From: Marinoscillum pacificum
GTDB taxonomy: Bacteria > Bacteroidota > Bacteroidia > Cytophagales > Cyclobacteriaceae
Reading direction: 5' to 3'
Length of the DNA stretch: 64,000 bases
Assembly: GCF_024714495.1 (NCBI RefSeq)
Contig: NZ_JAMZMJ010000004.1
Span: forward strand, 248,001 to 312,000
This document shows, piece after piece, positions 48,239 through 63,397 of this stretch (its first letter is position 1; each line of letters begins with the position of its first letter). The notes under the pieces are model-generated. The model saw nothing but the letters and a program-made list of their open reading frames with translations, searched no databases and was not told the origin of the DNA. A program made the translations under genes and the position numbers.

Positions 48239-48316
48239 GATTATTGAATAAGAAAAAAGAATCGGATATAACTATATTGTTTGGCTTATAACTTAATCGC
48301 CATCAATATACCCATC

Positions 48317-50269
48317 ATGATTAAAGATTTATTAACACTTAACGACATTGTTTCCGATAAACTTTTCAAGATTCCAGACTACCAACGAGGATACTCATGG
48401 GGAAAGAGACAATTGACTGATTTAATAAAGGATATAGACCACATCCAAGACAAGTCACATAAACATTACACGGGAACAATTGTAATAACCTCAAATAGTC
48501 TAACTAATAGATATGATGTGGTTGATGGTCAGCAAAGGCTAACAACATTAATCATACTTTTGAAATGCCTGTATAGCACTAATGAAACAAAATTTAAGGA
48601 GATAGAATCCAAATTTCTTTATCGAGATGGTGAATATGTTCTTGAAACCAACAAGGAGACAAACTTCTTCTTTAAGGAATCAGTTATTGAGGACAAAAAG
48701 CACCTTGAAATCAAGATCAAGTCTCTAGCCAACCTTAAAAACGCCAAAGCATTTTTTAATGAATGGTTATCGAAAACCAACATCCCCCACGAAAAATTAC
48801 TTCAAATAATAACCAACCAACTTGGATTCATTTGCTTTTCCCCTCAAAATACTAATGAGATAGGGATAATGTTCGAAGTAATCAATAACAGAGGCAAAGA
48901 ACTATCCGAGCTAGAAAAAATCAAGAATTACTTCATTTATTATGCAACCATTCACAATAACAAAAAACTTAAAAATCAAGTCAATGATATTTGGGGAATA
49001 ATCCTGGAATTTCTTAATAGTGCTGGCATAACAAACAATGAAGCAGAGAATAGATATCTCAGAAACTGCTATATAGTTTATTACTCATCCAACAAATCTA
49101 AAAGCTGGGATGTTTATGACGAACTGAAGAATAGGTACCGCCCGGAAAGCACAGAGAAGATTGATGAGAAAATCGAGGAAATCTCGAGTTTTATAGATTT
49201 TATCTGTCAGGCCGCAAAACACTATGCGTATTTTAGGGACGGATCTTTATTCAACCAGAAATACGATGGACCAAACAAGCCTCAAATTGCAGAAGCTCTA
49301 AGTCGATTAAGGTGTCACCCGGTCAACGCTTCCATTCTACCTTTATACTTAGCGCTAATGTCTCGAGTTTATGACTCACCAAATGAAGTAAGTCAGCTCC
49401 TCGGTAAGCTTGAAATATTGAATTTCAGGATTTATGTAATTCCAAATAAAAGAGTAGCTAGAGCTGACAGCAAACAAGGTGATTTATTTTGGTGGGCTCA
49501 TGACTTCTATTGGAGTGAGGACTGGGATTCTGAATCTGATGATGATCAATACTTTACCTCTTTTGGCAACAAGGAAGTCCATGGAAATGAATTCGATTGG
49601 TTGAATCTCGAATTTGACGAATGCATCAAAACACTTTGTCCAGAAACCACCTTCATAGAATCTCTGACAATTGATGATGGAGAATCCATAGACTATTATC
49701 ACTGGAACGGAATAAGATATCTATTAGCTAGTTATGAAGAACATTTACATCTACAGAAAAATGAAAGCTGGGACATAGAGAAAATACTTATCAAGAGAAA
49801 AGATGCAGAAGATGATAAGGGTAACGACTACTTATCAATTGAACATATTTGGGCTTCTAAAAATAGAGCTGATCATTTTTCATCAGACATTCGTGAAAAA
49901 AGACGACTAGGCAACTTTGTGCTTCTAGGACTCAAAAGCAACATACAATTAAAAAATGACGACATTCAGAATAAGGTCAAGTATTTGATAGAAAACAACC
50001 TCTACTCAATGCGTCAAGTAGTTGATCTATCTGATTATTTGAACCAATCAATAACTTATGTTGATTCCTGGAGGCAAAAAAAAACCAATAGATACTTTGC
50101 AGACATAGCTACAAGCCTTATTGACAAAAGAGAAATCGATTTAGTCAATTTTGCTCTGTCAAGATGGAAACTTCCTTCAGAGTCATCAACAAACTTTGAC
50201 ACCATCAACTCTTTCAGTGCATGGGATGAAAAAAGATCTAGTTACTTCTATTTAAAGGATAATGAATAG
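48317..50269 (+). CDS. DUF262-DUF1524 (GmrSD-like) protein
   Basis: This 650-residue protein begins at the ATG at 48317; an in-frame TTG 36 bases upstream would add an implausible hydrophobic start. The DUF262 ParB-like nuclease/NTPase domain shows IPDYQRGYSWGKRQL (19-33), DGQQRLTT (70-77) and VINNRGKELSELEKIKNY. The C-terminal DUF1524 HNH-like domain shows SIEHIW (H510) and LGNFVLL (531-537) then NIQLKNDDIQNK. This is the layout of fused GmrS-GmrD, a type IV enzyme family that cuts modified DNA. The next gene, a PD-(D/E)XK protein, starts eight bases before its stop, so they are coupled. Confidence 0.88.
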   Translation: MIKDLLTLNDIVSDKLFKIPDYQRGYSWGKRQLTDLIKDIDHIQDKSHKHYTGTIVITSNSLTNRYDVVDGQQRLTTLIILLKCLYSTNETKFKEIESKFLYRDGEYVLETNKETNFFFKESVIEDKKHLEIKIKSLANLKNAKAFFNEWLSKTNIPHEKLLQIITNQLGFICFSPQNTNEIGIMFEVINNRGKELSELEKIKNYFIYYATIHNNKKLKNQVNDIWGIILEFLNSAGITNNEAENRYLRNCYIVYYSSNKSKSWDVYDELKNRYRPESTEKIDEKIEEISSFIDFICQAAKHYAYFRDGSLFNQKYDGPNKPQIAEALSRLRCHPVNASILPLYLALMSRVYDSPNEVSQLLGKLEILNFRIYVIPNKRVARADSKQGDLFWWAHDFYWSEDWDSESDDDQYFTSFGNKEVHGNEFDWLNLEFDECIKTLCPETTFIESLTIDDGESIDYYHWNGIRYLLASYEEHLHLQKNESWDIEKILIKRKDAEDDKGNDYLSIEHIWASKNRADHFSSDIREKRRLGNFVLLGLKSNIQLKNDDIQNKVKYLIENNLYSMRQVVDLSDYLNQSITYVDSWRQKKTNRYFADIATSLIDKREIDLVNFALSRWKLPSESSTNFDTINSFSAWDEKRSSYFYLKDNE

Positions 50270-50714
50270 GCAAGAAGTTATTGAAATTATTAAAAATTGT
50301 TTAACCAGTCTTTATAGAAATTATGGGATACTGATTGAGAAGCAAGTTCGTGAGGAAACAATCAATGAACGCTTCATCACTTATTTAAGAGATTATTTTG
50401 AAGTAGAGAAAATCACTGTAGAGCCAGAATATGATAAGCATATTGACGGAGATAAAAACTACAAAACGATAGAAGGAGAAACAAAGCGCTTGCGGCCCGA
50501 TATTGTCATTCACGAAATTGGAACTGACGACAATAATCAAATAGCCTTTGAATGCAAGAAAAAGAAAATAACTGAAGAAGATGAAGTGAAAATTGATGCA
50601 CTGATAAGACAATACAATTATCGATATGGTGTATTGGTCGAATATAACAGTAAAAGGTTTACTATTTGTGAACTTGCCGGTGACACCCTAGAGTTGGAGT
50701 CATATTCTATTTGA
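50262..50714 (+). CDS. Stand-alone PD-(D/E)XK nuclease-like protein
   Basis: This 150-residue protein has the PD-(D/E)XK core: RLRPDIVIHE with D80, then QIAFECKKKK with E97-x-K99, and a helix region DALIRQYNYRYGVLVEY like the HsdR N-terminal fold. It lacks any helicase or DNA-binding extension. It overlaps the DUF262-DUF1524 gene by eight bases and is followed by a 381-base gap, so the two look like a self-contained two-gene unit. A free nuclease domain beside a GmrSD-like protein is unusual. It could instead be a structural or regulatory subunit. Confidence 0.75.
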   Translation: MNRQEVIEIIKNCLTSLYRNYGILIEKQVREETINERFITYLRDYFEVEKITVEPEYDKHIDGDKNYKTIEGETKRLRPDIVIHEIGTDDNNQIAFECKKKKITEEDEVKIDALIRQYNYRYGVLVEYNSKRFTICELAGDTLELESYSI

Positions 50715-51095: not shown

Positions 51096-53543
51096 ATGAA
51101 TAAGAAAGGACTTTCAGAATCCGATATTAAAGCAAAGTTCATTACCCCATCCATTACTAAGAGTGGTTGGGATGAACTTACACAAATTGGCAGAGAAATC
51201 TATTTCACAGATGGCCGTATTTATGTGAAGGGGAAAATGACTGCTAGGGGTAAGAGAAAGTTTGCAGACTATATCCTCTATTACAAACCCAATATTCCAA
51301 TAGCCATTATTGAAGCAAAGGATAATACTCATACGATTAAGAGTGGGATTCAACAAGCTTTGAACTATGCCAACACATTGGATATACCGTTCGTTTTCAG
51401 TAGTAATGGTGACGGTTTCTATTTCCATGACAAGACCGCAATAGATGGTGATATAGAAAAGGAACTGACAATGGATCAGTTTCCATCACCTCATGAATTA
51501 TGGTCCAAGTACCGAAAATATAAAGGGCTCGAAACGGAAGAGGCAGAGCATATAGCTGCTCAGGATTATTTTCAGGATGGAACAGGTAGAACGCCAAGAT
51601 ACTATCAACAGATCGCCATCAACCGAACAGTTCAGGCTGTGGCTAAAAAGCAAGATCGCATTCTGTTGGTAATGGCAACTGGCACTGGAAAAACCTATAC
51701 CGCTTTTCAAATTGCCTACAGACTTTTCAAATCGAAAGCCAAGAGAAAAATCCTCTTCCTTGCTGATCGCACGGCACTGGTAGACCAAACAGTTCGAGGA
51801 GACTTTCGCCATTTCAAAGATGCTATGTCGGTCATCAAGAAAAAAGTAAAGGTGATAGATGGAAAAGAAACATTGGTTTCTAACAACAAGAGAGGTATTG
51901 ACTCTTCAGATAAAGCCTATGACATTTTCTTGGGACTATACCAGGGGTTGAGTAATTCAGATCCTGAAATTCCAGATGCATTCAAAGATTTTAGCCCTGA
52001 CTTTTTTGATCTAATTATAGTTGATGAGTGTCATAGAGGCTCCGCCAAAGAGGATAGTAAATGGCGTGAAATTCTTGAATACTTCAGCAATGCCACACAT
52101 GTTGGGTTGACTGCCACTCCAAAAGAGACGAAAGAAGTTTCTAACATCGAGTACTTCGGCAAACCAATTTATACATACTCCCTAAAGCAAGGAATAGATG
52201 ATGGTTTCTTGGCTCCATATAAGGTAGTTAAAATAACCCTTGATATTGATGCTGATGGCTGGAGACCGCCTAAAGATTATTTGGATAAATCCGGTAATCC
52301 TGTGGAAGACCGCATTTACAACAGAACAGATTTTGACAAAAACATAGTCGTTGACGAAAGAAGGAAGTTAGTCGCTGCCAAGATTACTGAGTTCTTAAAA
52401 GGTCATGACCGGTTTGCAAAGACCATTGTTTTCTGTGTAGATATAGAGCATGCTGAAGGAATGAGAACGGCTTTGGTAAATGCAAATGCTGATTTGTATG
52501 CTAAAAACAACAAGTACATCATGCAGATCACGGGAGATAATGAAGAGGGTAAGCGTGAGCTTGATAGCTTTATCAACCCAATAGAAAAGTACCCTGTGAT
52601 AGCTACTACTTCAAAATTGATGACAACTGGAGTAGATGCTCAAACCTGTAAATTGATTGTTCTGGATAGCAACATAGGATCAATGACCGAATTCAAACAG
52701 ATCATTGGACGTGGCACTAGAATCAATGAAGAATACGGCAAATCCTACTTTACCATCATGGATTTCAGAAATGCTACAAACCTTTTTGCGGATTCGGATT
52801 TCGATGGAGATCCAGTGATGGTCAAAGAGTTTGGAGAAGGAGATGATCTTGACAATGTTGAGGATAATCAACCTGATGAAGAGGTTATTGATATTGTCGA
52901 TGGAGAGCCTGTTGATTTCCCAGAACCCCAGGAATATCCCAATATAGAATTAGGAGGCACAACTGTTAATGAACCATTCGAAAAAATCAGAGTTGATGGA
53001 GTTCGTGTACAGGTTGTTAATGAAAGGGTTCAATACATAGATCCAGCTACTGGTAAGTTGATCACAGAAGACTTAAAAGATTATTCTAAGAAGAACATCA
53101 CCGAACAGTTTGCTTCTCTTCAAGACTTCCTGAATCGTTGGAATGCTGCTGATCAAAAAAAGGCCATCATAGAAGAGTTAGAAGAACAAGGAATTTTGTT
53201 TGAAGCACTCCGAGAAGAGGTTGGTAAAGACTTTGACCCATTTGATTTGATCTGTCATGTGGCTTTTGAAGCTAAGCCTCTGACTAGAAAAGAGAGAGCA
53301 GAAAACGTCAAAAAAAGAAACTATTTCACCAAATATGGTGAAAAAGCACAAGCTGTTCTGGAAAGTCTTCTTGACAAATATGCCGTAGATGGACTAGTGA
53401 CCATCGAGAATACTGAAGTACTCAAAATGGCTCCCATTAATAAGCTTGGCACACCATTGGAATTAATCAAGGCTTTCGGAGACAAATCCAAATATCTGGA
53501 GGCTTTAAAAGAATTAGAAAAAGAACTTTACGAATCTGCTTAA
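51096..53543 (+). CDS. hsdR: Type I restriction enzyme, R subunit (EcoEI-like)
   Basis: This 815-residue restriction and translocation subunit has an N-terminal PD-(D/E)XK nuclease with D58 in KFADYIL and E73-x-K75 in IIEAKDN. A helicase motor follows with Walker A MATGTGKT (193-200), DECHRGS (310-316), GLTATP, and the C-terminal half typical of the EcoEI-R group (ILFEALREEVGKDFDPFDLI). All key residues are intact. Length fits the shorter type I-B group. Its stop overlaps the next start by one base (TAATG), so the four genes that follow are coupled. Confidence 0.95.
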   Translation: MNKKGLSESDIKAKFITPSITKSGWDELTQIGREIYFTDGRIYVKGKMTARGKRKFADYILYYKPNIPIAIIEAKDNTHTIKSGIQQALNYANTLDIPFVFSSNGDGFYFHDKTAIDGDIEKELTMDQFPSPHELWSKYRKYKGLETEEAEHIAAQDYFQDGTGRTPRYYQQIAINRTVQAVAKKQDRILLVMATGTGKTYTAFQIAYRLFKSKAKRKILFLADRTALVDQTVRGDFRHFKDAMSVIKKKVKVIDGKETLVSNNKRGIDSSDKAYDIFLGLYQGLSNSDPEIPDAFKDFSPDFFDLIIVDECHRGSAKEDSKWREILEYFSNATHVGLTATPKETKEVSNIEYFGKPIYTYSLKQGIDDGFLAPYKVVKITLDIDADGWRPPKDYLDKSGNPVEDRIYNRTDFDKNIVVDERRKLVAAKITEFLKGHDRFAKTIVFCVDIEHAEGMRTALVNANADLYAKNNKYIMQITGDNEEGKRELDSFINPIEKYPVIATTSKLMTTGVDAQTCKLIVLDSNIGSMTEFKQIIGRGTRINEEYGKSYFTIMDFRNATNLFADSDFDGDPVMVKEFGEGDDLDNVEDNQPDEEVIDIVDGEPVDFPEPQEYPNIELGGTTVNEPFEKIRVDGVRVQVVNERVQYIDPATGKLITEDLKDYSKKNITEQFASLQDFLNRWNAADQKKAIIEELEEQGILFEALREEVGKDFDPFDLICHVAFEAKPLTRKERAENVKKRNYFTKYGEKAQAVLESLLDKYAVDGLVTIENTEVLKMAPINKLGTPLELIKAFGDKSKYLEALKELEKELYESA

Positions 53544-55219
53544 TGGAACAACGGATTGAAATAATCAACAACTGGAACCTAAAAAAAGTAATAGGAGAAA
53601 TCGAAAACGGCAATATGAAAATCCCACGTTTTCAACGTGGGTATGTTTGGGAGAGGTCCAAAATTGTAAAACTCCTAAACAGTATATATGCTCAATACCC
53701 TATCGGTTCTTTCTTCATTTGGATGGCAAATAAGCAATACAAGAACTTTTCAAGGGAAATTGATGGACTAAACTTGCCAACTGATCCAGAATCCAACCTG
53801 TACAGCTTTATCCTTGATGGCCAACAAAGGATCACATCCTTATATGTGGCTCTAAGAGGTAAAAATCTGAACAATACAGACTATGCTTCAATCTGTTTTA
53901 ATTTGGAAAAGGCTGAATTTCAAATCCCAAGATTAAAAACAGAAAAGCATAACATACCTGCTTTCAAACTCTTTGACACAAAAGAATATGGAGCAGTTTT
54001 AAAAGAGTATACTCTATATGATGTAGAGAATGATACCAATTACTCTGAAGTATGGAGTGAATGCTTGCAAGTTTTCAGCGATTATCCAATTAGTATAATT
54101 AAGACGCTGAAAATGGACTTAGAAGAAGTTGTAGACATATTTGAAAGAATCAATCAGGGAGGTAAGAGACTTTCTTTGTTTGATTTAGTACATGCAAGTA
54201 CATGGGCTCCATCTTTTGACTTGCGAGACAAAATCAAAGAATTCAATTCCGAAGAAAACATTAAGTCATTTGGAGGAATTGAGAATGAAGTTTTTACGCA
54301 AGCTTTAGCATTAAATAGTTTCGGAGATTGCCGAAATCAAAACCAGTTAAAGCTTAATCATGAATTATGTGAAAAGCACTGGAAACAGACCACAGAATCC
54401 ATTAAACTCTCCATGGATTTTGTTAAAGGATTTGGAGTTCGTTTTGTGACGTTTTTGCCTTATAATTCATTTTTGCCAGTCCTACAGCTGTATTTCTATC
54501 ATTCAGGAAATAAAGCTGTCAAGAAGGAGCATAAACCATTTATTGAAAACTGGTTTTGGACGGCTACTTTCTCCCAACATTACTCAAGTTCTAGTTTGAC
54601 AAAAATGAAGGAAGATGCTGACTGGATCAAATCATTAATTTCAGGAAACTTAACTGAGAATATATTTGGCGTTACTCTTACATTAAAAGAGCTTTCCAGG
54701 GTTAGCATGCAAAATAATTCCGTGGTAAAGAACGGGGTTCTATGCTTAATGGCATTGAACAATCCTAAAGATTTTGACAATGGACAAATTGTTATTCTGG
54801 ACAAATCCAATATATCAAAGTCCAATGGTAAGGAAAATCATCATTTCTTCCCATATTCCCTCAAAGAATCATTCAATACGGATGCTAAAGGGATTAATAG
54901 TTTGCTGAATTTTGCACTCATATCTGCCCGACTAAATCGAGAAATAAGTAACAAATTCCCATCTGATTATTTAAAAGCTTACGCCTATGAAAACAATAAT
55001 ATTGGTGAAGACTTGGATAGTCATTTCATTTCCACTGAGGCTTTTAATTATGCTTTAGCTGATGACTATGAAAAGTTCAGAGAAACTCGTGGGCAGATGA
55101 TTTTAAATGCAATATATAGTAAAGTAAGAGTGGGTGAATATGCAGATAATCAATCACTTGAAGATAAAGACATAATAGAAGAAAACATCGAATTCGAATT
55201 ATCTGAAGAATCAGAATAA
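53543..55219 (+). CDS. DUF262 protein encoded within the type I restriction operon
   Basis: This 558-residue protein shows the DUF262 motifs IPRFQRGYVWERSKI (28-42), DGQQRITS (92-99) and VDIFERINQGGKRLSLFDLV. Its C-terminal domain has NHHFFP (432-437), an HNH-like motif as in DUF1524 proteins. It thus resembles a fused GmrSD-type nuclease rather than a type I subunit. It begins one base into the hsdR stop and ends two bases before hsdM, so it is co-translated with the complex. Such open frames inside hsd loci are known in other bacteria, but the role is not defined. It could restrict modified DNA that the type I enzyme tolerates. Confidence 0.88.
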   Translation: MEQRIEIINNWNLKKVIGEIENGNMKIPRFQRGYVWERSKIVKLLNSIYAQYPIGSFFIWMANKQYKNFSREIDGLNLPTDPESNLYSFILDGQQRITSLYVALRGKNLNNTDYASICFNLEKAEFQIPRLKTEKHNIPAFKLFDTKEYGAVLKEYTLYDVENDTNYSEVWSECLQVFSDYPISIIKTLKMDLEEVVDIFERINQGGKRLSLFDLVHASTWAPSFDLRDKIKEFNSEENIKSFGGIENEVFTQALALNSFGDCRNQNQLKLNHELCEKHWKQTTESIKLSMDFVKGFGVRFVTFLPYNSFLPVLQLYFYHSGNKAVKKEHKPFIENWFWTATFSQHYSSSSLTKMKEDADWIKSLISGNLTENIFGVTLTLKELSRVSMQNNSVVKNGVLCLMALNNPKDFDNGQIVILDKSNISKSNGKENHHFFPYSLKESFNTDAKGINSLLNFALISARLNREISNKFPSDYLKAYAYENNNIGEDLDSHFISTEAFNYALADDYEKFRETRGQMILNAIYSKVRVGEYADNQSLEDKDIIEENIEFELSEESE

Positions 55220-55221
55220 AT

Positions 55222-56658
55222 ATGGCCAACGTAAGTGCAGTTGTAAGTAGCGTAAGGAATATCATGCGTCAGGACAGAGGTATCTCTGGTGACGCTCAGC
55301 GATTGGAGCAGCTCGGCTGGATGCTCTTCCTCAAAATCATGGATGACAAAGACCAGGAGCTGGAGGTGATCAAAGACAATTACATCTCTGTAATCCCTGA
55401 GAAATTCCAGTGGCGCAACTGGGCATCTGATCCGGAAGGAATCACCGGAGACGAACTATTAGACTTCATTGATAGTAATGCAGAAAGCAATCTGGGTCTT
55501 TTTGCTTCACTGAGAAACTTAAATGTGCCAGCACACCCTAAACGTGCAGCCATAGTTAAGGAAGTGTTCGAAGGTTCTAATAACTACATGAAGTCCGGCT
55601 ATGAGATGCGTAAGGTCATCAATAAGCTGAATGAGATAGACTTCAACAGCTCGGAGGACAAACACATCTTTGGCAACATTTACGAGAGCATCCTTCAGGA
55701 ACTCCGTGATGCGGGCAACAAAGGCGAGTACTACACGCCTCGTGCGGTGACACAGCTCATGACCCAGATGACCGATCCGAAGCTTGGTGAAAAAGTCCTG
55801 GACCCGGCCGCAGGGACAGGTGGTTTCCTCACGGCAGCTATAGACCATGTGCGAGAGCAATATGTGAAAACAGTGGATGACGAACACATCCTCCAAAAAA
55901 GCATCACAGGTTGGGAGCTGAAGCCGGTGGCATATGTGCTGGGACTCACCAACCTCATCCTGCACGAGATGGATGTGCCGGACTATCACTACATGGATAG
56001 TCTCAAAAAAGAATACAACAGCATTGGCAAAAAAGACCAGGTGGACGTGATCCTGGCCAATCCACCATTTGGGGCAAGCATAGCCGAAGGAGTAGAAACC
56101 AACTTCCCGGCCAGCTACCGATGCAAGGAATCTGCTGATCTCTTTGTAATCTTGATGCTGCAGCTGCTCAAACCCAATGGCCGTTGTGCCATCGTCTTGC
56201 CCGATGGATCTATCACTGGTGAAGGCGTAAAAGCCCGCATCCGCGAAAAGCTCCTGACCGACACCAACCTGCACACCATTGTTCGCTTGCCCCAGAGTAC
56301 GTTCTTCCCGGCCACTGTCAGCACCAACTTGCTCTTCTTCGAAAAAGGCAGCCCAACAGAAGAAATCTGGTACTATGAACACCGACTACCCGAAGGACAG
56401 AAAAGCTACTCCAAGACCAAGCCCATCCAGTTTGATGAGTTTGCACCGCTGATCAAGTGGTGGGAAAACCGTGAAGAAGGAGAACAAGCCTGGAAGGTGA
56501 AAATAGAAGACCTCAAAAACTGGGATCTGGACATCAAGAATCCTAGCAAAGTAGATGAAGAAGAAGTCTTATCCACAAGTCAAGCTTTAGAGAAATTGAA
56601 AAAGTCGATTTCGAAATCAAATGGTTACATCTCAGAATTAGAAAACCTTCTCAGCTGA
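55222..56658 (+). CDS. hsdM: Type I restriction enzyme, M subunit (N6-adenine methyltransferase)
   Basis: This 478-residue subunit has an N-terminal helical HsdM domain, then motif I DPAAGTGGF (194-202) and the catalytic NPPF (280-283) in ILANPPFGASIAEG, followed by DGSITGEGVKARIREKLL. These mark an N6-adenine methyltransferase. The base composition is visibly richer in G+C than in its neighbours (many CTG, GTG, GCC and ATC codons), from the start to about 56520, after which it becomes AT rich again. The stop overlaps the hsdS start by one base. Confidence 0.95.
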   Translation: MANVSAVVSSVRNIMRQDRGISGDAQRLEQLGWMLFLKIMDDKDQELEVIKDNYISVIPEKFQWRNWASDPEGITGDELLDFIDSNAESNLGLFASLRNLNVPAHPKRAAIVKEVFEGSNNYMKSGYEMRKVINKLNEIDFNSSEDKHIFGNIYESILQELRDAGNKGEYYTPRAVTQLMTQMTDPKLGEKVLDPAAGTGGFLTAAIDHVREQYVKTVDDEHILQKSITGWELKPVAYVLGLTNLILHEMDVPDYHYMDSLKKEYNSIGKKDQVDVILANPPFGASIAEGVETNFPASYRCKESADLFVILMLQLLKPNGRCAIVLPDGSITGEGVKARIREKLLTDTNLHTIVRLPQSTFFPATVSTNLLFFEKGSPTEEIWYYEHRLPEGQKSYSKTKPIQFDEFAPLIKWWENREEGEQAWKVKIEDLKNWDLDIKNPSKVDEEEVLSTSQALEKLKKSISKSNGYISELENLLS

Positions 56659-58028
56659 TGAAATCTTACACAATTTCAGATTTTCTTCGGCGAGTAAAAA
56701 ATCCAATCGATTTGGATGATTCGACAAGTTATAAGCGTGTTACGATAAAGACCAATCATCAGGGAGTATATCTAAGAGATACAGAAATTGGCGCTAGGAT
56801 TGGTACAAAAAAACAGTTTGTTATTAATGGAGGTGACTTTATTCTATCAAAAATAGACGCTCGATATGGTGCCTTTGGTATAATTCCACAAGAATTAGAT
56901 GGAGCTATTATCACTGGTAATTTTTGGACATACAGGGTGGATACTTCTTTGGTAGATTCTGAATGGTTTTTCTACTTTACCCATTCCTACAATTTCATTG
57001 AAATTTGCAAGGAATCAAGTGCCGGAACCACCCATAGAAAATACTTGGATGAAACAAGGTTTTTGAATCACAAAATTGATCTTCCCTCTATTTCAGATCA
57101 AGCTAAAATGGTTAAGCGCTATAAGGGATTATCAAAAATTTCGAATAATTGCCTTACTGAAATCCAAACCCAAAAGCAGCTCCTTTCACAACTCAAACAA
57201 TCCATACTTCAGGAAGCCATCCAGGGTAAGCTCACCACAGACTGGCGTGTACAAAACCCTAATGTGGAACCCGCCAGTGGTTTACTAGAGCGCATCAAAT
57301 CCGAGAAACAAAAACTCATCGACGAGAAGAAGATCAAGAAAGAAAAACCACTACCACCCATCACCGCAGATGAAATCCCATTCGATCTTCCCGAAGGCTG
57401 GGTGTGGTGTCGGTTGGGAGAAATAATCGAGTTAATCTCAGGACAGGATTTCGATAAAAGTGGGTTTTCAGAAGATAATAAAGAAGGAGTTCCATATTTA
57501 ACTGGTGCCAGCAATTTGAAGGATGAAAAGGTGATATTGAATCGTTGGACAAAAGCACCAAGATCTATTGCCAGGAATGGAGATCTATTGTTGACATGCA
57601 AAGGGTCCGGGGTTGGTAAGATGGCCTTTTTAGATCATCAGGAAGTACATATTGCAAGACAATTAATGGCAATAAGGAGTGGTATCATAGATCTTTCATA
57701 TATCAAATATTTACTTGCTACTAAGCTAAGCTTGTTTCAAGACGAGGCTAAAAGTTTAATTCCTGGAATCGATAGACCAATGGTGCTCAATATTGTTGTT
57801 CCGCTTCCAACATTATTAGAAATTGAAGCCATCGTCCATAAAGTAGAATCCCTGATGGACAAGTGTCGTGCCCTGGAAACCGAAATCACCCAAAGTGAAC
57901 AACATGCCCAGCACCTCATGCAAGCTGTGCTGAAGGAGGCATTTGAGTCAGAAGACAAAAGCTATACGAATCCGGAACCACCACTCAGCATAGCCGCAGA
58001 AGAAAGGGGGGAGTATGGCAAAAACTGA
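56658..58028 (+). CDS. hsdS: Type I restriction enzyme, S subunit (sequence specificity)
   Basis: This 456-residue protein has two target recognition domains (about 1-165 and 235-410) separated by conserved helical spacers (QTQKQLLSQLKQSILQEAIQG and VESLMDKCRALETEI). The order TRD1-spacer-TRD2-spacer is complete, so a bipartite recognition site is expected. The spacers and hsdM share G+C-rich codon use, while the two recognition domains are AT rich, which fits domain exchange. Specificity cannot be read from sequence. It is followed after 16 bases by a small gene. Confidence 0.95.
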   Translation: MKSYTISDFLRRVKNPIDLDDSTSYKRVTIKTNHQGVYLRDTEIGARIGTKKQFVINGGDFILSKIDARYGAFGIIPQELDGAIITGNFWTYRVDTSLVDSEWFFYFTHSYNFIEICKESSAGTTHRKYLDETRFLNHKIDLPSISDQAKMVKRYKGLSKISNNCLTEIQTQKQLLSQLKQSILQEAIQGKLTTDWRVQNPNVEPASGLLERIKSEKQKLIDEKKIKKEKPLPPITADEIPFDLPEGWVWCRLGEIIELISGQDFDKSGFSEDNKEGVPYLTGASNLKDEKVILNRWTKAPRSIARNGDLLLTCKGSGVGKMAFLDHQEVHIARQLMAIRSGIIDLSYIKYLLATKLSLFQDEAKSLIPGIDRPMVLNIVVPLPTLLEIEAIVHKVESLMDKCRALETEITQSEQHAQHLMQAVLKEAFESEDKSYTNPEPPLSIAAEERGEYGKN

Positions 58029-58458: not shown

Positions 58459-61400
58459 ATGAAGCAAGGCAAAGTAGGATATATCTCTAAACCAGTATTA
58501 GATGGAGTGAGAGGTTTCGAAGATGCTCAGAAGCTCAAGATGGAAGGTTTGATTGATTCATTGATCACTTTTGACTACTTCGCAAATTTCCATCTCGATC
58601 CGAGCACATCTGTCAGTAGTGTCTATGCCGTAGCCTTCAATATCATTTCTCGGGGTACTCCTACTTTAGCCAGTCCTTTTTTAGAATCTGCACTTTCAAA
58701 ATCAACTGGTCTGACTCAGGAAAATTCTAATGAGTTTGAAATTGAATTTGGCAGAAGTGAATCCTTTGATCTCAACAGCGTAGTTCGGGCCCTTCACCCT
58801 ATCGACTCCAGGAAGAAGAATCGTCGAGATTATGTAAATACGGATGTTCTTGATTCTACATTTGAGCGAGACTTCTTATTCAAGTACATTCCTGAGTCTG
58901 AATCCTACCTCCCGTTGGTACTAGATTTTCAGAGGGCAAGAAACACCCTTGGAGCTTCAAATGGCAATTTGGGACGAGTTGATTTTAGCTTACAAATCCC
59001 TTATTTCGATAACGATGTAAGGCAAAATCGATATAAAAAAGATACCGAGGTACGCTTCCAAAAAAAGTATATTGTAGAAGTAGATGGCAGGCGTTATCAT
59101 GATCTCAAAATTGATGCATTAAAGGATTTTGAACTAGCTGAGCTGCCCAACAATACACAGCACGTTAGGGAAGACACACTCTTCCAGGATGTTTATTCTT
59201 TCCTTCGAACTATTTCTAGAGAAGATTATCTGAAAATCTTGAAAACAAACTTTTCAAAAGGACTAGATGATCTACTCAATTACTATCTTCTCATGCTTAC
59301 ACCTCTTGGTGTTGGTCGCATCCAGTATCTGATACTAAAGTATCTGATGAGTGTCTCAGCAAAAAGTCTTAAAGGCAAACTTAAACTAGCGGTTATTGAA
59401 CGAGATTTGCCATGTGCTGCATTAGCCATTCAAGATTTGGAGCAATTACTGTCACGCCTAAATAGTTTAGTTGATGAATCAATAGAGATTCCACAAATAG
59501 AATTGTCTATTTACTCCAGCAAGGAGTTTGTAAATCATGATTTGCATTTAGGCGTACCAACTAATTTAATCAGTGGATTCAAGGCAGATGGGTTTGATTT
59601 GGTCTTGGATATTACGTTGCTCTCACGTTTTTTCACCGTTAGGCATACTCCAGAGGTTAAACATAATTCCCTAATAGTCATCGGCAACAGCCACTATGAA
59701 GACACCTCTCAAAAACATTCATTTATTTCAGCCGAATCCATTAAGTATAAAGAGTTGGTGGTTGAAAAAGACAATGAAGAATATGAAGAAATTCCGCAGA
59801 CTGTTGATAACCTGGAGTATTTCATTCAGCTCTTTTTCAGAAAAAGGAAGTTTAGACCTGGTCAATTACCCATATTAAACAGAGCCTTAAGGGGCAAATC
59901 TGTCATTGGACTCCTGCCAACAGGTGGTGGAAAATCACTTACTTATCAGCTTGCTAGTTTAATGCAGCCGGGGATTACAGTAGTTGTTGACCCTATTAGA
60001 TCGTTGATGCTGGATCAGTACAATAGCCTGGTCAAAATTGGCATCAATAGAGCAGAGTTTGTCAACTCTAGTAAGTCCGGTTCTGAAAGAAGATATATAC
60101 AGAAATCACTCACCGAGGGGCAACTTCAATTCCTCTTCGTATCTCCGGAACGTTATGTGATCAAATCTTTCCGAGATAGTCTTTTTGAAGCTACTCAAAA
60201 CGAATTTTATTTCTCTTATGCCGTAATAGATGAGGTTCACTGTGTGAGTGAATGGGGGCATGAGTTCCGTGCAGATTATCTGAAACTAGGCAAAAACATT
60301 GTTCAATTCACCAAAACCAAGACAGGAAAGAGTATTCCATTATTTGGTCTCACCGCTACAGCATCTTACGATGTATTGGCAGATATAGAAAGAGAGCTGG
60401 AGATTCAGGAAGATGATGGCAATGCCATAGTCCGCTATGAAAATACAGTGAGAGATGAAGTGAACTATCAAATTCTTCAATCATCGATCCCTTCACACAA
60501 ATTGGAGAATCTAAACCCTCGTGCTATTAGATCAGAAATTGGAGAGCGTAAGCAAAAAGCAGCTGTAAGATGGATCCAAGATCTCCAATCAAGACTCACT
60601 TCTTTTCAACCCGCATTACCGGACATTTTAAAAACAAGCTTCGATTCTTATCTACCAGATAGCATAAGAAAGATAACAAGTGATCAGGAATATATTCAAG
60701 ATCAATTAAAACGGCTTGGCTTAGATGATAAGACCTTCAATAAGGATTCAAAAGTTGAAAAAGTAGGGTCTACAGAAATAGAAAAGACATCTTTTAATTC
60801 TGCAATTGTAGTTTTCTGTCCGCATCGTACTGGAGCATTAGGTGTAGAATCATTTGCAAGAATATTCGAAAAAGACATTCCTTCTGAATCAATAGGCACT
60901 TTCATGGGTGCTAGTGATTCTGTGAACTCAGAGGAGATAGACAGGGCCTCTTTTGAAAATCAAGAGAAGTTTCTGGCTAATGAGCAATCAATTATGGTTG
61001 CAACGAAAGCTTTTGGTATGGGGATAGATAAGCCTAACGTAAGAGCCACAGTACACGCCAACGTACCTGGTTCAATAGAATCTTTTGTACAGGAAACTGG
61101 TCGGGCAGGTAGGGATAAAAAACTTTCTATTTCAGCCGTATTCTATAGCCCAAAAGTTCACTTAAAGGATGATAACGAATTTTTTAATGACCGTGAAGTA
61201 TTGGATTTCTTTCATAGGAAATCCTTTAAAGGTAAAATAAAGGAACGTCAGGTAATCTATGAGTTAAGAAACAAAATCACTTATCCGTCAGCTTCAAGAT
61301 TGCATCTGCTTCAGGTGGAGATTGCTGAGAGACTTGACAAGGCAAATATTAAATTAAACATAAACAACAACACACTTTATCTAAATGATGCAGAGGATAA

Positions 61401-62826
61401 TTCCTACCTCGGACGAATGGATTTGAAATCCTTAGCTTTCTCTTCGTCTCATGAATTGAGATCCATCAATAGCAATGATCTCACTCTAATCGCAGCTCTA
61501 ATTAAATCAAGAATAGAAAGCCAGAGTATTGATAGTCGTAGCAGTTGGCTGCAAGATACCGTAGGAATAGAGCCCGCCTCTGGAATTGAAACCAGGCTAT
61601 TAGAAGCTAGCTATGGTGAAGAAATTCAGATGAAAATTGCGTTCTCTAATACCTATGTTTCGAGAAAAGTAGATAGGATTTTCATATTAAACGCCGACCA
61701 TTTTAATAAGGTACTTACCGTCCCTGTTATAAAGAAGTTGTTACTGGAAAACCAACTCTCACAAGAGTCCATTAGTAATACCTTATCAAATGCCGTTGAG
61801 AATGATGCGACATTTGATCAATTCATACATTCACTGACAGATTCGGAGAATCTTCTAGTTGAGTTAATGGATGAGACGCTTGAAAGAGCATATTATCTCC
61901 CTAGAGATAAGTCTGACACAGCTAAAGCTATTTACAGATTGGCCTCCATTGGTGTGATAGATGACTATACAGTTGATTTTCAAAACCATATTTACTACGT
62001 CACGGCAATAAAGAAGAAACCTGATCAGTATTTCAAAAATCTTGGCTTACTAATAACAAGATATACATCCAGAGGCTTTGCAGAAATTCAAATAGAAAGA
62101 TTACATCAAGAGTACGATCCACTTATCGAGAATGGAAAAGCAACAGAGATAGGTGTCTGTATCAACTATCTCACAGACTTTGTTTATGGTCAAATAGCTG
62201 ACAAGAGAGCACAGGCCATTGATGATATGATCAATCTTTGTGAGACGGCTCTAAGGATTGAGGATCCATTTAAGCAGAATAGTGAAATCAAAGATCATAT
62301 CTATTACTACTTCAATGCCAAGTACTCTCGACTGAACAATTTTGCATTAAAAGATGATGGTGAAAAGACTCCTGCTTCATTTTTCGATGATAAGGAAATG
62401 AACACTTTTGACCTTATCAACAAATACCTGGATTTGACAGAATGGGATAGAACTGCATCTCTAAAAACCAACATCAAACACCTTAGAGGAGCTTGTATGA
62501 GAATGCTAAGAGTATTGCCTGACCATGCAGGATTTAGAATACTCAAAGCATATGCCTTGATAGTCTTATCAGAAAACACACAAGGTTTACTTAAAGAGGC
62601 TCAGAAAGAGCTTCTGGATGGCTTGGTTCGTTGGCAACAAGAAGAGGCGGATCTTTCTGTGATGGAACAATTTGATTTAATCGAAAAGAAAATACTATCT
62701 CATATTAATAACAAACTCGTTCGTGAAGTTCTATCTACTGTTCGCTCTACCTTCAGAATAAAGTATTATGCCCAGTGGACTTCTAAATTTTCAAATCAAT
62801 TTACTAAAGGCTTAAACTATGCTTAG
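58459..62826 (+). CDS. RecQ-like helicase with N-terminal DUF559-like nuclease domain
   Basis: This 1455-residue protein carries a PD-(D/E)XK domain near residues 150-260. Its D175 is in GRVDFSLQI, E207-V-D209 is in IVEVDGRRYHD, and a K/D-rich helix follows, as in DUF559/Vsr-type nucleases. From about 465 a RecQ-type helicase begins: FRPGQLPIL, Walker A GLLPTGGGKS (484-493), DEVHC at 591-595 in DEVHCVSEWGHEFRADY, GLTATAS (630-636), GMGIDKPNV (853-861) and QETGRAGRD (878-886). A roughly 200-residue insert sits between motifs III and IV. No RQC zinc cysteines are seen, and the C-terminal 570 residues are unassigned helical sequence. It overlaps the next gene by eight bases. A DNA-targeting defence nuclease is the likely role. 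Confidence 0.85.
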   Translation: MKQGKVGYISKPVLDGVRGFEDAQKLKMEGLIDSLITFDYFANFHLDPSTSVSSVYAVAFNIISRGTPTLASPFLESALSKSTGLTQENSNEFEIEFGRSESFDLNSVVRALHPIDSRKKNRRDYVNTDVLDSTFERDFLFKYIPESESYLPLVLDFQRARNTLGASNGNLGRVDFSLQIPYFDNDVRQNRYKKDTEVRFQKKYIVEVDGRRYHDLKIDALKDFELAELPNNTQHVREDTLFQDVYSFLRTISREDYLKILKTNFSKGLDDLLNYYLLMLTPLGVGRIQYLILKYLMSVSAKSLKGKLKLAVIERDLPCAALAIQDLEQLLSRLNSLVDESIEIPQIELSIYSSKEFVNHDLHLGVPTNLISGFKADGFDLVLDITLLSRFFTVRHTPEVKHNSLIVIGNSHYEDTSQKHSFISAESIKYKELVVEKDNEEYEEIPQTVDNLEYFIQLFFRKRKFRPGQLPILNRALRGKSVIGLLPTGGGKSLTYQLASLMQPGITVVVDPIRSLMLDQYNSLVKIGINRAEFVNSSKSGSERRYIQKSLTEGQLQFLFVSPERYVIKSFRDSLFEATQNEFYFSYAVIDEVHCVSEWGHEFRADYLKLGKNIVQFTKTKTGKSIPLFGLTATASYDVLADIERELEIQEDDGNAIVRYENTVRDEVNYQILQSSIPSHKLENLNPRAIRSEIGERKQKAAVRWIQDLQSRLTSFQPALPDILKTSFDSYLPDSIRKITSDQEYIQDQLKRLGLDDKTFNKDSKVEKVGSTEIEKTSFNSAIVVFCPHRTGALGVESFARIFEKDIPSESIGTFMGASDSVNSEEIDRASFENQEKFLANEQSIMVATKAFGMGIDKPNVRATVHANVPGSIESFVQETGRAGRDKKLSISAVFYSPKVHLKDDNEFFNDREVLDFFHRKSFKGKIKERQVIYELRNKITYPSASRLHLLQVEIAERLDKANIKLNINNNTLYLNDAEDNSYLGRMDLKSLAFSSSHELRSINSNDLTLIAALIKSRIESQSIDSRSSWLQDTVGIEPASGIETRLLEASYGEEIQMKIAFSNTYVSRKVDRIFILNADHFNKVLTVPVIKKLLLENQLSQESISNTLSNAVENDATFDQFIHSLTDSENLLVELMDETLERAYYLPRDKSDTAKAIYRLASIGVIDDYTVDFQNHIYYVTAIKKKPDQYFKNLGLLITRYTSRGFAEIQIERLHQEYDPLIENGKATEIGVCINYLTDFVYGQIADKRAQAIDDMINLCETALRIEDPFKQNSEIKDHIYYYFNAKYSRLNNFALKDDGEKTPASFFDDKEMNTFDLINKYLDLTEWDRTASLKTNIKHLRGACMRMLRVLPDHAGFRILKAYALIVLSENTQGLLKEAQKELLDGLVRWQQEEADLSVMEQFDLIEKKILSHINNKLVREVLSTVRSTFRIKYYAQWTSKFSNQFTKGLNYA

Positions 62827-63397
62827 CGAAGAAATAACCTCATCGATAGATCTCTTACATAAGGAACTTGAAAAACTATCACCGGCTATTGACCTGGTGG
62901 CCAGAGCTAATCAGGCTGTTGATGCAGCTAAGACCATTCCGGATCTTCATAAAAACTTGATAGCTCAAATTCAAACTCTGGAAACCGATTTTAGAAATAA
63001 ACTTGTTGATGAGCTTCAATTAAGTGCATCAGATATTAGTAAGAATGTATCTTCTTTAACGGATTCCCTTACAGAGAGAATGGAGACTATTAAAGCATTT
63101 GCAGATAAGCTTGATGGACAATTAAAGGAGAATCACGACTTTATTGATCAAATTAATCTGATAGATTTTCCAGCACGTTTAAACTCTATTTCAGGTCATG
63201 TGAGCAATATCTCCTCAGGCTTTAACAATCTGCAAGGAGTTACTACTACTTTGAAAGATGATATCCTGAGAATAGAGAGAGAAAACAATCAGAGGATAAA
63301 TGAACTGAATGAGTCAGTGAAGTTCAATAAAACGCTTCAATTCGTATCCGTTGGTTTGTTGGTTGTTGTGATTGTACTGATTTTCGTTTTGAAATAA
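62819..63397 (+). CDS. Tail-anchored coiled-coil protein, partner of the nuclease-helicase
   Basis: This 192-residue protein is nearly all helical coiled coil (KLSPAIDLVARANQAVDAAK to RIERENNQRINELNESV), with no N-terminal signal. It ends in one C-terminal transmembrane helix (FVSVGLLVVVIVLIFVL) and lysine, so the coiled coil faces the cytoplasm. Its ATG lies eight bases inside the helicase stop, which indicates translational coupling and a fixed partnership. A membrane anchor or sensor for the helicase is suggested. No family is recognised. Confidence 0.75.
   Translation: MLSEEITSSIDLLHKELEKLSPAIDLVARANQAVDAAKTIPDLHKNLIAQIQTLETDFRNKLVDELQLSASDISKNVSSLTDSLTERMETIKAFADKLDGQLKENHDFIDQINLIDFPARLNSISGHVSNISSGFNNLQGVTTTLKDDILRIERENNQRINELNESVKFNKTLQFVSVGLLVVVIVLIFVLK

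Follow-up and report, generated by a model that had tools for sequence, protein, structure and literature searches.

The Marinoscillum pacificum contig NZ_JAMZMJ010000004.1, part of a 6.4-Mb genome, carries within positions 248,001 to 312,000 (64,000 nucleotides, hereafter the window) a pair of overlapping forward-strand genes. They encode a large RecQ-like helicase with a nuclease domain and a small coiled-coil protein with a predicted C-terminal membrane anchor. We lean towards the view that the two genes form one defence system, in which the helicase-nuclease is tethered to the inner membrane and there encounters DNA entering the cell. The first gene is an open reading frame (ORF) of 1455 codons (58459-62826; coordinates are those of the window unless a locus is named) and the second has 192 codons (62819-63397). 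The eight bases 62819-62826 are common to both, as a first-pass annotation of the sequence had it.

Helicase and nuclease domains

The 1455-residue protein has eight full-length relatives at 29-34% identity. Pfam reports in it only DEAD (residues 467-640, E 5.9e-19) and Helicase_C (776-886, E 2.5e-10). The protein passes the cut-off of the NCBIfam model recQ_fam (239.9 against 219.8 bits) and fails that of the RecQ equivalog (265.8 against 640.2 bits). A profile of the family matches RecQ structures in the PDB with E values down to 4e-81. Lobe 1 (residues 455-680; 59821-60498), recognised by Pfam, NCBIfam and motifs, contains the Walker A sequence LPTGGGKS, DEVH and the RecQ aromatic loop (SxWGHxFR, here SEWGHEFR), while lobe 2 (residues 776-900; 60784-61158), recognised by Pfam and motif patterns, contains motif VI (QETGRAGR). 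All four are intact. Walker A is present in 50/50 members of the family and motif VI in 49/50, and the helicase motif patterns overall in 46-50 of 50. An insert between motifs III and IV (residues ~681-775; 60499-60783) separates the lobes: the RecQ match to lobe 1 stops at ~682 and Helicase_C begins at 776, leaving a gap between both the Pfam and the NCBIfam stretches. The cysteines of the protein are residues 319, 595, 787, 1234, 1261 and 1346. Since there is none between 787 and 1234, the RQC zinc site is absent. The first-pass annotation had proposed a RecQ-type helicase with a long insert and no RQC zinc site, which the profile matches and the cysteine positions bear out.

It had also placed a DUF559/Vsr-like PD-(D/E)XK domain at the N-terminus, and here too an active site of the expected kind, DF...E-x-D-G-x-x-[HY]...D, is found by profile and alignment. 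The putative nuclease core spans residues ~155-245 (58921-59193). Indeed, D175, E207, D209 and D219 are unchanged in 17/17 aligned relatives, and the motif is present in 43 of the 50 members checked, the window protein included. Searched against the PDB, a profile of the alignment of residues 1-454 gives two matches with E <= 1, both over this stretch. In the better one, 3HRL ('Endonuclease-Like Protein', E 7e-9), D, E, D and D align to the four residues named above. The other, 3R3P, the EDxHD homing enzyme I-Bth0305I, is weak (E 0.012) and differs at the first and third of the four active-site positions. Three relatives (L056, L077 and L048) pass the Pfam DUF559 cut-off; the window protein itself has no Pfam DUF559 match at E <= 0.1, and its nuclease segment alone matches no PDB chain in a phmmer search. 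The intact motifs suggest that the protein would have both helicase and nuclease activity.

Between nuclease and motor lies a middle region (residues ~270-454; 59266-59820), covered by a profile, MID, that matches most members but not L070, L073, L074, L076 and L077. It is included in an AlphaFold model of residues 1-454, with a predicted local distance difference test score (pLDDT) of 86 and a predicted template-modelling score (pTM) of 0.90.

The C-terminal region and the definition of the family

Whole-protein similarity was rejected as a basis for the family. The full protein matched 357/395 genomes of the phylum, mostly via the helicase core that ordinary RecQ proteins also have. Because such a search is dominated by the core, the family was defined by its C-terminal region, and the profile of that region, A2, built from 31 sequences, is the hallmark of the family. 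The large C-terminus remarked on in the first-pass annotation proves to be family-specific (residues ~1140-1455; 61876-62823). AlphaFold models residues 905-1455 (pLDDT 81, pTM 0.62) as a helix and a beta-hairpin at the conserved YRL..GV.DDY motif, then alpha-helices; in our reading of the model, the helix and hairpin appear winged-helix-like. The C-terminal profile has weak PDB matches, such as Integrator subunit 4 (E 9e-4). An RQC remnant was considered and rejected, since an hhalign comparison of the family C-termini (46/48 sequences used) with 54 RecQ C-termini was not significant (probability 0.8%, E 0.07). Complete members in this analysis have ~1130-1750 residues.

The coiled-coil partner

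The 192-residue partner has a single hydrophobic segment by hydropathy, residues 173-191 (63335-63391), predicted to be a tail anchor. Its heptad periodicity is well above that of shuffled sequences (z 6.8, 0/200). Both features agree with the first-pass annotation, which had left it to be checked whether such a gene recurs beside relatives of the helicase.

It does. The family was represented by 51 non-redundant ORFs (the window's left out; L056 and L059 each represent the E. coli variant described below), of which L170 runs into a contig edge, so that 50 relatives were scored. A partner was counted when an ORF with a C-terminal hydrophobic segment started between -130 and +300 bases from the helicase stop. 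Such an ORF lies directly downstream in 43/50 relatives and in 0/65 controls, which are RecQ cores without the C-terminal region, not taxon-matched, one of them being the N-terminal half of a family member that is split (L167). The background within family loci is low, a single tail segment occurring in 6/408 other ORFs of 100-520 residues. When coiled coils lacking the hydrophobic tail are included, 49/50 relatives have a partner. The heptad periodicity exceeds that of shuffles in 49/49 partner proteins (z 2.6-14.9; the window's included, L049's not, and with the longest downstream ORF used for five partners without a segment). The pairing is therefore conserved, and related partners are recognised by profile as well. 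Among the 29 matches listed for a ten-partner profile run on locus ORFs (nine of them members of the profile, some of them duplicates) are the downstream coiled coils of family helicases, that of L049 included.

The sole other kind among these matches is a Rhodothermus coiled coil encoded next to a gene with weak similarity to UvrD, seen twice (L050, L057). On the Rhodothermus marinus plasmid (L050:3501-7116), a gene for 1031 residues with a UvrD match below the cut-off is immediately followed by the gene for this related, apparently tail-anchored protein. The only other plasmid relative of the UvrD-like gene, from Picosynechococcus, has no short same-strand gene right after it, and no relatives were found in five of the six genomes searched or in one viral single-protein scan.

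Three partners that lack the hydrophobic tail (L047, L049 and L051) share a similar basic/aromatic stretch at their C-termini, perhaps another membrane-binding element.

Distribution

The distribution of the family is patchy and includes mobile elements. By the A2 profile, and with the window's own genome counted, it occurs in 23/395 genomes and 16/171 genera of the phylum Bacteroidota, and in 12/194 genomes and 10/94 genera of the same order. The matches have E values of 5e-42 or lower, save for G042 (a 1007-residue ORF, E 1.8e-25) and a broken copy in G215. Outside the phylum, a scan of contigs, mostly from metagenome-assembled genomes, finds members in at least Roseburia, Bacillota, Proteobacteria, Comamonadaceae, Opitutae, Phycisphaerales and an actinobacterium.

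Copies are borne on plasmids of Haliscomenobacter, Salinibacter, Rhodothermus and enterobacteria. Members are also found on four IMG/VR contigs, and the L140 gene sits between terminase and primase genes. Among complete E. coli genomes, 7/5426 share a single variant (98-100% identity), which is plasmid-borne in four and chromosomal in three; two of the records have an insertion sequence inside the match. The annotated plasmid records call the large protein 'RecQ family ATP-dependent DNA helicase' or 'DEAD/DEAH box helicase' and its partner 'hypothetical protein', generic names that do not reveal the system.

Variable N-terminal modules

Since the N-terminal module varies among members, the core of the family consists of the motor, the C-terminal region and the partner. 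Methyltransferase-like N-termini occur in L037 and L066 (Pfam 20-21 bits, cut-off 27) and, by reading of the sequence, in L065. They are combined with the nuclease in L061 (24 bits) and L062 (13 bits), both below the cut-off, and in L140 by similarity. L049 has a kinase N-terminus, and L077, whose 5' end is open, a kinase together with DUF559. The E. coli variant has HAD and DUF559 domains and a weak match to a phosphoribosyltransferase (PRTase), with E 0.02 in Pfam and E 1.5e-7 for the NCBIfam model GntX, neither of which reaches its cut-off. Its gene order is dprA, the gene for the 1558-residue HAD/weak PRTase/DUF559/RecQ protein and that for a coiled coil of 162 residues with a predicted tail anchor (L056:5990-12134; L059:11075-17162). 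The entry phrog_33220, which has 1558 positions and perhaps represents the E. coli variant, also matches the window protein.

Two further observations concern these N-termini. Just upstream of methyltransferase-like variants lie a 2OG-Fe(II) oxygenase gene (L037:7147-7761) or a DUF1848 gene (L061:7001-8119 by Pfam; L062:7116-8177 by similarity). The first ~190 residues of the L043 helicase ORF, which have no Pfam match, read as DnaQ-type exonuclease-like with an altered first motif.

An unlikely generalisation is that the family serves as a general, modular checkpoint for DNA entry at the inner membrane. An invariant core of RecQ-type motor, C-terminal scaffold and tail-anchored coiled coil would grip single-stranded or free-end DNA and pass it to an exchangeable N-terminal module, be it nuclease, methyltransferase-like, HAD-PRTase with DprA, or kinase. 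The helicase, GntX/ComF-like PRTase and DprA of the E. coli variant resemble parts of natural competence, so that the family may have arisen from machinery for DNA uptake that was converted to immunity.

Genomic neighbourhood

The pair lies 3' of a type I restriction-modification (R-M) operon (51096-58028), in which a GmrSD-type gene (53543-55219) lies between hsdR (51096-53543) and hsdM (55222-56658), with hsdS following. Another GmrSD gene stands further upstream with a small HSDR_N-like protein. The first-pass annotation had placed the pair in a defence island next to a type I system, and R-M genes and two GmrSD genes do lie upstream. The second GmrSD gene overlaps by eight bases the gene for the small protein (48281-50714 together), which has 150 residues and weak HSDR_N_2 and PD-Lambda-3_A matches; the two are possibly a separate two-gene system.

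Defence genes flank a minority of the other family loci. With reference proteins from the window and E. coli L059 only, relatives of R-M or GmrSD proteins lie within 9 kb (<= 9 kb) in 7/50 loci besides L059 (L041, L055, L060, L063, L075, L163 and L171) and in 0/62 RecQ controls. An MzaA match in L045 was taken for a housekeeping sigma factor and excluded from the count. With 12 reference proteins, several of them drawn from family loci themselves, the count of loci that have a known defence gene at a distance of up to 9 kb is 11/51, as against 0/62 RecQ controls. Among the neighbours, PADLOC recognises BrxB/BrxC of BREX (L037), DrmA of DISARM (L054), type I R-M (L041, L063), the GmrSD-like Orf5/HEC-06 (L163) and a PD-T4-1/PDC-S02 match (L042); it has no match for 3/10 neighbour proteins submitted. 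The E. coli chromosomal copy is flanked by type I R-M and mzaA-E. In L063 the pair is flanked by an NB-ARC/NACHT protein (L063:6403-8994) and an ORF that reads as protein-kinase-like (L063:14594-16066).

On the 3' side, partly beyond the window, a HipA_2 kinase gene comes just after the anchored protein and is directly followed by an overlapping DUF3037 gene (from 63890 onward; L035:2891-4518). Relatives of these two were found by phmmer beside none of the 51 other family loci. Then come genes for a Mob_Pre relaxase (L035:5619-6503), a ParA-like ATPase (L035:7365-8114) and a tyrosine integrase (L035:11261-12517), which indicates that the island is on or beside an integrative mobilizable element.

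Possible mechanism and alternative explanations

In the arrangement that we favour, the RecQ-type translocase would load on DNA that offers free ends or single-stranded stretches, and the DUF559-type nuclease of the same protein would cut the DNA as it is unwound. The small protein, embedded in the inner membrane by its C-terminal end, would tether the enzyme by means of the coiled coil. The helicase-nuclease would thereby be stationed where phage, and perhaps plasmid, DNA enters, away from the nucleoid. The coupling of the two genes suggests that the helicase docks physically on the partner, and the genomic context points to a role in anti-phage defence, with incoming DNA as the presumed target. 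There is a precedent for cutting at the membrane. The membrane-bound nuclease SNIPE cuts phage DNA while it is being injected (PMC13190303; statements on published systems, here and below, follow excerpts of the papers cited).

A number of observations weigh against this arrangement. The membrane position of the partner is predicted from hydropathy, and the coiled coils of L047, L051, L075, L077 and L143 have no hydrophobic segment. Neither has that of L049, which follows a broken helicase end, and L062 has no partner at all. The RecQ controls are not matched to the family by taxon. In 7/50 members (L037, L065, L066, L042, L166, L043 and L049) the nuclease motif is degenerate or missing, so that cutting is no universal output. 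Foldseek finds nothing at E <= 0.001 for the model of residues 1-454 in the PDB and BFVD (several nucleases are in the BFVD list, every one insignificant), nor for the C-terminal model in the PDB. Finally, by the 12 reference proteins, several of which come from family loci, 40/51 loci have no defence neighbour.

The chief rival, which we regard as rather improbable, is a guarded toxin. The helicase-nuclease would be an abortive-infection enzyme kept inactive by an antitoxin-like membrane protein; disturbance of the membrane during phage entry or lysis would free it to attack all DNA and kill the cell. The overlap of the genes is compatible with this, and RqlH/PsyrT, the closest relative whose function has been studied, is a RecQ-like helicase with genotoxic activity that its partner holds back (PMC4670107). 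SNIPE, moreover, is toxic once its membrane segment is removed (PMC13190303). The E. coli variant, with its HAD domain, weak GntX-like PRTase match and dprA, fits as well, since DprA homologues serve as antitoxins in rqlHI, shosTA and syrTA (PMC9122126). However, the toxicity of RqlHI maps to the PRTase domain (PMC4670107), for which the window protein has no match at E <= 0.1. Its partner is a coiled coil and not DprA, and no DprA is encoded among the eight ORFs flanking the window pair or the two genes just downstream.

A function outside defence, in the maintenance or transfer of mobile elements (processing of plasmid, phage or integrative-element DNA at the membrane, or recombination), is doubtful. 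It would account for the copies on plasmids and IMG/VR contigs and for the relaxase and integrase genes near the pair in the window genome. Against it stand chromosomal copies, such as that of E. coli between R-M and MZA genes, the lack of a constant replication or transfer gene beside the pair among the loci listed, and the exchangeable N-terminal module. That the large protein is an ordinary DNA-repair RecQ paralogue with an incidental downstream membrane gene is already highly implausible: its RecQ core has solved relatives, as expected, but the partner is found at 43/50 family loci and 0/65 RecQ control loci, the distribution is sporadic, and the window genome has two further RecQ-like loci elsewhere.

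Comparison with known systems

The first-pass annotation knew of no named defence system with this layout, and none is found in PADLOC 2023, in NCBIfam of June 2026 or in the open-access literature searched. The two model collections match only the helicase core. Narrow keyword searches of open-access papers returned no description of the family; subscription papers and preprints could hold one.

Among helicase systems, RqlHI/PsyrTA consists of a RecQ-PRTase helicase and a DprA-like protein (PMC4670107, PMC9122126). It likewise combines a RecQ-type helicase and a partner in a small operon, the PADLOC PsyrT profile scores 197.5 bits on the helicase part of the window protein, and the E. coli family member has an upstream dprA and a weak PRTase match. 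In contrast, the window protein has a nuclease domain, another C-terminus and a coiled-coil partner with a predicted tail anchor, and the PsyrT profile, with 689 positions, is shorter than the complete family members. DpdF, of the 7-deazaguanine system, gives the top PADLOC matches of the helicase core (262 bits), but the likeness is limited to that core, the NCBIfam DpdF model scoring 167.7 bits against a cut-off of 550. No other Dpd protein is among the matches listed for the neighbours scanned.

ZorD, one of the effectors of Zorya, is itself a helicase-nuclease. In Zorya, a membrane component, the ZorAB motor, localizes the DNA-acting effectors ZorC and ZorD (PMC12904381), which recalls the role proposed here for the coiled coil. 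Unlike Zorya, the window pair matches no motor genes: ZorB has no match in it, and ZorA only a weak coiled-coil match to the 192-residue partner (16.4 bits). Kiwa has two genes, for a membrane protein (KwaA) and a DNA-acting partner at the membrane (KwaB), much as is predicted for the pair, but KwaB binds DNA without cutting it (PMC12904381), and the KwaA and KwaB models have no match in the pair at E <= 0.01. SNIPE (PD-lambda-1) would share with it a membrane-fixed nuclease that acts on entering DNA, the membrane position being a prediction here. However, SNIPE is a single protein with an N-terminal membrane segment, DUF4041 and GIY-YIG, and neither domain is reported in either window protein at E <= 0.1.

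Zorya, Kiwa and SNIPE are all DNA-targeting defences with membrane components (2026 review, PMC12904381), so the principle of holding such enzymes at the membrane is not new. If the arrangement that we favour is correct, the pair would represent a further family of membrane-placed, DNA-targeting immunity beside these three. Its exchangeable N-terminal modules would allow several outputs to be compared on one scaffold, and its small anchored partner would offer a simple handle on whether membrane position separates self from foreign DNA.

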